Below are positions 5,812 through 9,023 of a DNA stretch of 64,000 nucleotides, one piece after another; position 1 is the first letter of the stretch, and each line of letters begins with the position of its first letter. The notes below the pieces were generated by a model. That model was not told the DNA's origin, ran no database searches, and saw nothing but the letters and a program-made list of their open reading frames with translations. Location: positions 168,995 through 232,994 of the forward strand of contig NZ_FNLC01000002.1 of NCBI RefSeq assembly GCF_900104065.1. Reading direction: 5' to 3'. Position numbers and translations under genes: made by a program. Origin of the DNA: Natronobacterium texcoconense. GTDB lineage: Archaea; Halobacteriota; Halobacteria; Halobacteriales; Natrialbaceae.

Positions 5812-6125
5812 CCGGAGGATTTTGATCGGTGTATGTCACAACCTACCCCACGACTTACTCGCATATGGATTGTAATGCTTGTTTTAGGCCTCTAGTAGTC
5901 GTTTCTTTCTCTCGAATATAATGATCAGATCCAATATGCTTGTGGTCTTGTACTCATATAAGAATAATTTTTCTCGTGGCCGTCGCCACCCCCTTCGAAC
6001 GCGTTCGAAGGGGCCGGCCGTCGTAATTACTCATCGAACTCGACCGATGACCTCGAGTGGGGCCGATTTTCAGTTCTGGTATTCGGAGCCAAACTACCAA
6101 TAGGGGGGACTGTCTCTTCGAGCGC
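5812..6125. other. AT-rich intergenic region upstream of two divergent genes
   Basis: About 310 bp between the pckA promoter and the actin-like gene. The stretch 5880-5980 is much more AT-rich than its surroundings (for example CATATAAGAATAATTTTT at 5955-5972), and a perfect 24-bp palindrome follows at 5990-6013. No coding frame here has plausible composition. It probably holds the regulatory region of the downstream gene. Confidence 0.6.
5990..6013. repeat. Perfect 24-bp palindrome
   Basis: The left arm CCCCTTCGAACG (5990-6001) is followed directly by its exact complement CGTTCGAAGGGG (6002-6013). It sits 112 bp ahead of the actin-like gene, just after an AT-rich stretch. Possible roles are an operator for a dimeric regulator or a DNA/RNA hairpin. 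Confidence 0.8.
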
Positions 6126-9023
6126 ATGGTATACGGCCTCGATATTTCGCCGAGTGCGGTACGGTCAGCGGTCGACCGGTCCGGCATGCCGACGGTCGAG
6201 TCGGAACTTCCCGCGATCGTTCCGCTCGAGGAGTCGGCTGCGGACCTGCTTACTGCCGACCGAACGGACGGGACGTACGTGATCGGATCGGACGCACGGA
6301 CCGTCGACGACGACCCACGGGTCCCCTTCGAGCGCGGCGTCTTCGACGACACCGACGCGGCCGAGACCGTCCTCGAGACCGTCGTCGACCGGCTGCTCGA
6401 GGGAGGCGATTCCGACCGGGTCCGGTACGCGACGCCCGAACCGCTGGTCGCCGAGAACACCACGAGCGTCGACCACCGCGAGACCGTCGAGTCGGTCCTC
6501 ACCGGAAAAGGGTACGAGCCGACCCCGATCGGCAAGGGTTTTGCCGTCGTCTACGACCAGCTCGAGGAGAACAACTACACCGGCGTCGGGATCTGTCTCG
6601 AGCGCCAGAGTACGAGCCTCTCGCTTGCCTACTACGGTGTGCCCTCTCTTTCGTTTTCGATCGCACGCGGGAGCGCGTGGATCGTCGACCGCGTCGCGAC
6701 CGAGACTGGTCGCTCTCCGCCGGAGGTGCGCGAGGTCCTCGAGACGTTCGAACTCGATCCCGAGACGACGGGCGAACTCGAGGGAGCGATCGCGGACGCC
6801 TACGACGCACTCGTCGGCGAACTCGTCGACGTGCTCGAGCAGTACGCCGACGACGGCTCGCTCCAGGACGGTGTCGCCGTCCCGATCGCGATCGGGGGCG
6901 ACGGCGTGATCGAGGGTCTCGAGTATCTCGTCGGTGGCCGAATCGACGCTGCGGGACTCCCGCTGTCTATCCGTGGCGTTCGACTGGCCGACGAGCCGGG
7001 CGAAAGCGCCGTTCGCGGTGCGCTCGCGGCATCTCGAGACGACATCGACGCCGGCAGTAGCGCCTGGCCCGCCGAGACCGACGTCGACGCCGCCAGCCGG
7101 CCCGTCGAGACGAGCGGCTCCGCCGAGAGCGAGACGGAACGGGCCGTCAACGGGAACGGCGGTTCCGACGGTGAGACGGTTTCGTTCGACGACGCGACCG
7201 TGGTCAACGGCGGCAGTTCCGGCGGCCGAAACCGGGCCAACGACGCGCTCGACTCGCTGCTCGACCAGCTCTCGACTCACGAGCAGCGACTCGAGGAAGT
7301 CGACGAGGACGCCGACGCGATCCGTGACGACCTCGAGGAACTGGCGGACCGGACGGCCTCGAGCGAGCGGGTGGCGGAAGTCGACGAACGGCTGGTGTCG
7401 GTCGTCGACGACCTCGCCGCACTCGAGGAGGAGACGATCGCGGACGTGACCGCAGAGATCGAATCGCTGGAGGGCGATATCGAGTCGTTAGAGGGTGACT
7501 TCGACGGGCTGTCGGAGACCGTTTCGGATCTCGAGTCACTGGAGGGCGACGTCGAGTCGCTCGATACCGACCTCGAGGGGCTGTCGGAACGACTCGCGGA
7601 GGTCGCCGACGACGCGGAGACGCTTGAAGACGTCACCGAGGAACTCGAGGAATCCGTTTCCGAACACGGGGAACGGTTCGAGGACCACGACGAGCGGATC
7701 GACGAGGTATCCGAAGGACTCTCCGGCCTCTCGGAAACGCTCGAGGACGTCTCCGGCCGACTCGAGGGGGTCGTCTCGGACGCGGAGGCGCTCGAGAGTG
7801 ACGTCGCGGATCTCGAGGAGTCGCTTTCCGAGCACGACGAGCGACTCACACAGCAGGACGACCAGGTCGAGACGCTGTCTGACCAGCAGGCAGACTTCTC
7901 GGAGACCGTCGACGACGTCTCGGAGCAACTCGAATCGGTCGTCGACGACACTGACTCCCTCGAAAGCGACGTCACGGGCCTCGAACAGCAGTTCTCCGAC
8001 CTCGACGAACGAGTTGCGGAGCAGGACGGGTCGATCGACGACGTCTCGGATCGACTGGCAGACCTCGGGGAAACCGTCGACGAACTGGCCTCGCTCGAGG
8101 AGACTGTCGACGAACTCGCATCACTCGAAGCGACCGTCGACGAGGTATCGGAATCGATCGCCGACCTCGAGGCACTCGAAGGCACCGTCGAGTCGCACGA
8201 GGACGACCTCGCGGAACTATCGGAATCGATCTCGGAACTCGAATCGCTCGAGACCGATCTCGGGGACCTTTCGGAGACCGTCGACAAACTGGAAGGGGTC
8301 TCGGAGACCGTCGCTGAATTAACGGCACTCGAGGACGACCTCGAGGATCTCTCGGCGTCGGTCACCGACCTCGAGTCGTCGCTGACCGCCGACGTCGACG
8401 AGGTAACGGATCGACTCGAGTCGGTGGACGACGAGGTGGCGTCGCTCGGCGACGAGGTCGGAGACCTCGAGACGCAGGTCGCCGCGTTTGACGAGCGATT
8501 CGAGAGCCAGAGCACGAAGATCGACGGCGTCTCGGGTCGACTCTCGGAACTGTCGGAACGAACGGACGCCCTCGAGTCGTCGCTGGCGGCCGATATTGAC
8601 GACGTCTCGGAGCGCCTCGCGACGCTCGCAGACGAGACGGGAGCGGTAGAGAACGACGTCGAGGGACTCGAGGCACGCGTCTCGGAGTTCGACGGGCGAT
8701 TCGAGGATCAGGACGACCGGATCGAGGAACTGACGGATCGACTCGCGGATCTCTCGGCGGAGAGCGACGACGCTGATTCGCTCGAGACCGACCTCGAAGA
8801 ACTATCGGAGACCGTCGCTGCACTCGAGGCTGGCGACGACGATACGACGGCCAGTGACGACTCGAGTTCGAGTGGTGTCGCGGTCCCGACGCTCGCCGGC
8901 GGTGGCGGTGCGGGAGTCGTCTCGGGTGGCGCTGTCGCGCTCACCAGCGATCCGACGATCGGGGCGGGTGCGGCCGCTCTCGGCGTCGCACTCGTTCTCG
9001 TGGCAGTCTTCCTCGGCCGATAG
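6126..9023 (+). CDS. Actin-like ATPase domain fused to a long coiled coil and C-terminal membrane anchor
   Basis: A 965-residue protein. Residues ~1-310 look like an actin/FtsA/MreB-type fold: VYGLDISPSAVRSAV (phosphate-1 loop), YTGVGICLERQSTSLSLAYYG near 151-170 (phosphate-2 loop) and VPIAIGGDGVIEGL near 252-265 (adenosine loop). An acidic Gly/Ser linker follows (~320-375). From ~380 to ~905 the chain is an almost unbroken coiled coil rich in Leu-Glu-Ser and Val-Asp-Glu repeats, with no Cys or Pro. The end is a Gly-rich spacer and a hydrophobic helix finishing ALVLVAVFLGR, a tail anchor. ATG 6126 is chosen because GLDISPS should sit at the N-terminus. The architecture suggests a membrane-linked filament or scaffold; no function is known to me. 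The fold assignment is by motif, not by alignment. Confidence 0.8.
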   Translation: MVYGLDISPSAVRSAVDRSGMPTVESELPAIVPLEESAADLLTADRTDGTYVIGSDARTVDDDPRVPFERGVFDDTDAAETVLETVVDRLLEGGDSDRVRYATPEPLVAENTTSVDHRETVESVLTGKGYEPTPIGKGFAVVYDQLEENNYTGVGICLERQSTSLSLAYYGVPSLSFSIARGSAWIVDRVATETGRSPPEVREVLETFELDPETTGELEGAIADAYDALVGELVDVLEQYADDGSLQDGVAVPIAIGGDGVIEGLEYLVGGRIDAAGLPLSIRGVRLADEPGESAVRGALAASRDDIDAGSSAWPAETDVDAASRPVETSGSAESETERAVNGNGGSDGETVSFDDATVVNGGSSGGRNRANDALDSLLDQLSTHEQRLEEVDEDADAIRDDLEELADRTASSERVAEVDERLVSVVDDLAALEEETIADVTAEIESLEGDIESLEGDFDGLSETVSDLESLEGDVESLDTDLEGLSERLAEVADDAETLEDVTEELEESVSEHGERFEDHDERIDEVSEGLSGLSETLEDVSGRLEGVVSDAEALESDVADLEESLSEHDERLTQQDDQVETLSDQQADFSETVDDVSEQLESVVDDTDSLESDVTGLEQQFSDLDERVAEQDGSIDDVSDRLADLGETVDELASLEETVDELASLEATVDEVSESIADLEALEGTVESHEDDLAELSESISELESLETDLGDLSETVDKLEGVSETVAELTALEDDLEDLSASVTDLESSLTADVDEVTDRLESVDDEVASLGDEVGDLETQVAAFDERFESQSTKIDGVSGRLSELSERTDALESSLAADIDDVSERLATLADETGAVENDVEGLEARVSEFDGRFEDQDDRIEELTDRLADLSAESDDADSLETDLEELSETVAALEAGDDDTTASDDSSSSGVAVPTLAGGGGAGVVSGGAVALTSDPTIGAGAAALGVALVLVAVFLGR

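Follow-up and report, generated by a model that had tools for sequence, protein, structure and literature searches.

A volactin-family actin fold on a long coiled coil with a hydrophobic tail: a candidate membrane tether for haloarchaeal volactin filaments

What might a protein do that carries an actin-like head, a very long coiled coil, and a hydrophobic C terminus on a single chain? This question is raised by one gene of the window, i.e., the whole 64,000-nucleotide stretch of DNA analyzed here. The features of this gene are compiled in Table 1. The ATG at 6126 is the correct start, since relatives share the conserved N terminus M-x-x-G-L-D-I-G.

Table 1. Features of the fused gene and its product (window coordinates)
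Feature	Position	Strand	Basis or remark
Whole gene: volactin-headed, coiled-coil protein with predicted membrane tether	6126..9023	+	965 aa; ATG 6126, TGA 9021-9023
Head, residues 1-305, actin fold	6126..7040	+	Pfam PF25216 Volactin, AF2, VIA-align
Phosphate-1 loop, residues 4-11 (GLDISPSA)	6135..6158	+	Asp6 kept; usual Gly8 is Ser in the window
Lys137 at the catalytic-Glu position	6534..6536	+	Aligned with stand-alone volactin E152, second Glu of MreB 'EEP'
Phosphate-2 loop, residues 157-164 (CLERQSTS)	6594..6617	+	SFGAGMTN in stand-alone volactin; two glycines gone
Adenosine-loop Gly257-Gly258	6894..6899	+	Gly258 invariant
Linker, acidic, Gly/Ser-rich, residues 306-372 (ends approximate)	7041..7241	+	Sequence; pLDDT <50 from residue 311
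Heptad coiled coil, residues ~373-904	7242..8837	+	Period 3.51, power 7.4
First hydrophobic Gly-rich segment, residues 917-939 (GVAVPTLAGGGGAGVVSGGAVAL)	8874..8942	+	Most conserved tail block
Second hydrophobic segment/predicted membrane helix, residues 945-964	8958..9017	+	AF2, hydropathy; ends 1 residue before the C terminus

The head can be assigned to a family and a fold. Residues 1 to 302 match the Pfam family PF25216 (Volactin) with an E value of 7.9e-97 and 325 bits (cut-off, 35), covering positions 1 to 320 of the 321 in the model. The AF2 model of residues 1 to 320, computed with 31 relatives, has a pLDDT of 88.3 and a pTM of 0.88, and VIA-align superimposed it on MamK (Z score of 25.6), BeeR (25.0), and MreB (24.7 to 25.0), with the actin fold extending across the whole head. 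Foldseek was in agreement, and PilM and FtsA were also among the structural matches. In sequence searches of the PDB, neither the single head nor a profile built from 32 fused heads gave matches beyond chance; the fold is therefore documented by prediction and structure comparison. These data bear out the original prediction of an actin fold in residues 1 to 320, and the three nucleotide-pocket loops lie where it had placed them, namely, at G4-A11 (phosphate 1), G153-G171 (phosphate 2), and I254-G260 (adenosine). It had also set the protein outside the described archaeal actin systems. This does not hold for the head, which belongs to the volactin family, but it does for the architecture: we found no description of a fused volactin-coil-anchor form in the open-licence literature on volactin and salactin, and an account elsewhere is possible. 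Judged by its sequence, the head is a diverged volactin paralogue and not a separate kind of actin relative, and it shares about 31 to 33% identity with the stand-alone volactin of the same genome. The fused protein does not have the form of stand-alone volactin (VolA, HVO_2015, of Haloferax volcanii), which matches the same Pfam family but consists of about 345 amino acids with a short acidic tail and no further domains; in its 965 residues the fused protein adds a coil and a membrane anchor, lacks the catalytic Glu, and diverges far faster.

A coiled coil of about 520 residues had been claimed for the middle region, and we arrived at a similar figure (about 530 residues; with a rise of 0.15 nm per residue, a fully helical rod would span about 80 nm). 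Its hydrophobic periodicity far exceeds that of 50 shuffled sequences (mean power, 1.0; maximum, 1.8), and AF2 modeled the C-terminal part of the coil as one 52-residue helix. Matches of the coil in Pfam and NCBIfam, including tropomyosin, SMC, Rad50, crescentin, arcadin-4, and many others, were rejected as low-complexity coiled-coil artefacts; they were scattered over unrelated families, and the large NCBIfam equivalogs were far under the cut-off. Among the fused relatives, identity amounts to 43 to 78% in the head, 39 to 76% in the last 50 residues, and 28 to 49% in the middle, and the total length of complete relatives varies from 575 to 1,313 amino acids (median, 1,035). Since both ends are conserved whereas the middle diverges and total length varies, the middle appears to be a spacer between two working ends.

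The C-terminal end has the pattern of a tail-anchored protein, with a hydrophobic segment at the extreme C terminus and no N-terminal signal. The original prediction, a Gly-rich spacer followed by a single membrane helix, was right as to the membrane segment; the supposed spacer is itself hydrophobic and highly conserved, and the single helix was not confirmed. The best-conserved block of the tail, A-G-G-G-G-A-G-V-V-A-G-G, is uncharged and is followed by a short turn and the last hydrophobic segment. The mean hydropathy of the first segment ranges from 1.2 to 2.1 across relatives, and that of the second is 2.57. In the AF2 model of the tail, the first segment contains a short helix of low confidence (model residues 74 to 84), and the final helix of 22 residues (model residues 88 to 109) is predicted confidently, with a pLDDT of 85 to 91. 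Two distant relatives (L124 and L108) have two tail segments that are each plainly hydrophobic. The tail is thus better read as a Gly-rich hydrophobic membrane hairpin than as a spacer plus one helix; a single membrane pass is possible.

To what extent this architecture is shared was surveyed in 391 genomes of the class. The original prediction had called for its taxonomic range, and the protein proved not to be unique to the window genome: of the 101 genomes in the window's family, 75 contain the fused form, in open frames of 649 to 1,564 codons, as do five genomes from two other families. Named carriers include Halobiforma, Natrinema, Natrialba, Natronorubrum, Haloterrigena, Halovivax, Halopiger, and Natronococcus. 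Additional fusions suspected from long open frames in four genomes of another family (G291, G224, G038, and G103) turned out to be ordinary stand-alone volactins of 347 to 349 amino acids. The survey was extended to 393 genomes from the rest of the phylum; the matches listed there all had stand-alone length, and no long form was among them. Every carrier, in the family or elsewhere, also has a stand-alone volactin, but this co-occurrence is confounded by phylogeny and is weak evidence of binding to volactin because volactin is near-universal in the family, with or without the fused gene. In the window genome, the stand-alone volactin (match at G000:C6:63201-64163; gene at L002:1369-2421) is unlinked to the fused gene. 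In a tree of 50 heads, the stand-alone volactins lie on one side of a branch with an SH-aLRT support of 100 and the window head lies outside; the fused heads of the window's family group separately, and the five from other families have no settled place. A single origin of the fusion is possible from this tree. As to the stand-alone gene itself, three genomes of one genus in another family (G211, G269, and G106) each contain two full-length stand-alone volactins on different contigs. A volactin gene is in two pieces at G106:C4:12424-13352 and at G364:C54:57721-67544, perhaps through insertions or frameshifts; the pieces in G364 are about 9 kb apart, and no intact stand-alone volactin was seen in that genome.

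The two kinds of heads evolve at very different rates. When both were compared in the same 24 genomes (276 pairs), median identity was 96.9% for stand-alone volactin and 58.2% for the fused heads, which were lower in every pair. The dN/dS ratios of the head in close pairs are about 0.13 to 0.5 (0.24 for the window against L064), indicating that the fused head is not decaying. It is maintained under purifying selection and is far less constrained than volactin.

The residues of the nucleotide pocket bear on whether the head is nucleotide dependent, as originally predicted. In a profile alignment with E. coli MreB, E152 of stand-alone volactin falls on the second Glu of 'EEP', and Glu at that MreB position has a catalytic role (PMC9597168). 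This Glu is present in all 32 stand-alone volactins and in none of the 79 fused heads, where it is replaced by Lys (26), Arg (23), Thr (19), Gln (4), Ser (4), Pro (2), or Ala (1). Four relatives (L091, L092, L130, and L131) thus carry Gln, the residue that actin itself uses at the catalytic position. All sampled stand-alone volactins share SFGAGMTN as their phosphate-2 loop; the window head has CLERQSTS in its place. Other pocket residues were kept, namely, the phosphate-1 Asp (76/79 fused, 32/32 stand-alone), the adenosine-loop Gly258 (79/79 and 32/32, respectively), Thr163 (76/79 fused), and, outside the window, mostly Gly8 of phosphate 1 (65/79 fused). The window head does not match the MreB hydrolysis motif E...T-X-[D/E], having K137...S162-T163-S164 instead, and stand-alone volactin, with M-T-N, likewise deviates in the T-X-[D/E] part of this motif. 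Since volactin itself departs from the motif, activity can be judged only imperfectly from lost residues; stand-alone volactin is nevertheless dynamic in vivo (PMC10869688). With Asp6 and Gly258 retained, the pocket may bind nucleotide, but ATP hydrolysis by the fused head appears unlikely from its residues. A nucleotide-driven head is doubtful because the catalytic Glu is absent in all fused relatives and the phosphate-2 glycines are lost in the window.

We tentatively favor the reading that the fused protein is a non-hydrolyzing, membrane-tethered volactin paralogue that would bind and anchor volactin filaments, which we consider plausible but short of probable. Computed in its support are the fold, family, coil, hydrophobic tail, lost catalytic residue, conservation, purifying selection, and co-occurrence reported above. 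The mechanism would be as follows. (i) The C-terminal Gly-rich hydrophobic hairpin would fix the protein in the cell membrane. (ii) The coil, probably dimeric or bundled, would extend into the cytoplasm. (iii) The head at its far end, with its catalytic Glu lost and its phosphate-2 loop altered, would no longer cycle ATP. (iv) It would dock on ordinary volactin filaments of the same cell by capping or lateral binding. (v) The docked filaments would thereby be anchored to the membrane, and the coil would determine how far away they lie. That a whole family of such paralogues serves as long tethers, which cap or grip volactin filaments and fix the distance of the filament end from the membrane, is a proposal that we make with considerable reserve. 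The protein would not be a general anchor, since 26 of the 101 family genomes lack it and only five carriers were found in other sampled families. In Hfx. volcanii, volactin filaments are described as spanning the cytoplasm and contacting the membrane with their tips alone, and factors that bind volactin as yet unknown (PMC10869688). The fused paralogue is a direct candidate for such a factor in an entire haloarchaeal family and may supply the link that is missing between the membrane and the actin filaments of archaea.

There is a precedent, by analogy, for a role as membrane anchor. In Spiroplasma, MreB3 has low ATPase activity and is devoid of the E...T-X-[D/E] motif; it is proposed to serve as the membrane anchor of other MreBs (PMC9597168). 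Both are actin-fold paralogues with a defective hydrolysis motif, but MreB3 belongs to the MreB family, uses an amphipathic helix as its anchor, and has no long coiled coil, so that the likeness is one of function and not of kinship. If the favored reading is true, the fused protein would be an archaeal parallel to MreB3, i.e., an actin that traded its ATPase for an anchoring role, and an actin subunit made into anchor and ruler on one chain. In magnetotactic bacteria, MamK or Mad28 and coiled-coil Mad proteins jointly position structures (PMC12748827); MamK has the fold closest to the head, but there the actin-like and coiled-coil parts are on separate polypeptides, and neither MamK nor Mad28 has a membrane segment. 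The haloarchaeal actin homologue salactin of Halobacterium salinarum is of another actin family, closest to MamK, and coiled coils are not mentioned in its description (PMC10746226); salactin works in DNA partitioning (PMC10869688).

Three alternatives were weighed against anchoring of volactin. In the first, which we regard as rather unlikely, the head acts as an adaptor of the FtsA/PilM/GspL type that binds a peptide of a non-volactin partner in the division, surface, or nucleoid machinery; this partner would be tied to the membrane by the rod. GspL/EpsL of type II secretion is likewise a single chain in which an actin-like domain in the cytoplasm is joined to one membrane helix, but it belongs to another system, has no long coiled coil, and carries a periplasmic domain after the helix. 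The structural matches to PilM and FtsA and the rapid divergence of the head, as expected from co-evolution with a variable partner, would fit an adaptor; by sequence, however, the head is nearest to volactin and not to FtsA or PilM, and its nearest folds are MamK, BeeR, and MreB. Nor did a search for a conserved gene around the 79 fused loci identify a partner: chiefly a PEP carboxykinase gene recurs, located upstream and divergently transcribed in about 41 of them. In the second alternative, volactin would play no part: the heads would polymerize with one another and form a static layer held about 80 nm below the membrane. The intact fold with Asp6 and Gly258 would permit this, and Spiroplasma MreB3 polymerizes despite its defective motif (PMC9597168). 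We consider it unlikely, since the heads diverge fast, unlike a subunit that contacts itself in a filament, and an obligate coiled-coil tether on every subunit would be expected to impede a regular filament. An active, switchable membrane-tethered actin that still binds ATP and hydrolyzes it slowly, as originally proposed, would be compatible with the retained Asp, Gly, and Thr163 and with the dynamic filaments of stand-alone volactin but is very improbable given the loss of the catalytic Glu in 79/79 fused heads and of the phosphate-2 glycines in the window.

Two further observations concern the surroundings of the fused and stand-alone genes. The gap that separates the fused gene from the divergent PEP carboxykinase gene contains a perfect 24-bp palindrome, CCCCTTCGAACGCGTTCGAAGGGG, at window positions 5990 to 6013. 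By chance, the window should contain none, and a search of the other fused loci did not recover the core of this palindrome. Directly upstream of the stand-alone volactin of the window genome and on the same strand is a gene (L002:369-1271; G000:C6) for a DUF7139 protein, a family of which no mention was found in the open-licence literature. It was not found next to volactin at L178 to L181, four loci from a further family, whereas it lies just upstream on the same strand in all 30 loci of the window's family examined and in one from another family (L182). The protein has about 300 amino acids, several hydrophobic segments, and a charged C-terminal half, and it is a candidate membrane partner of volactin.
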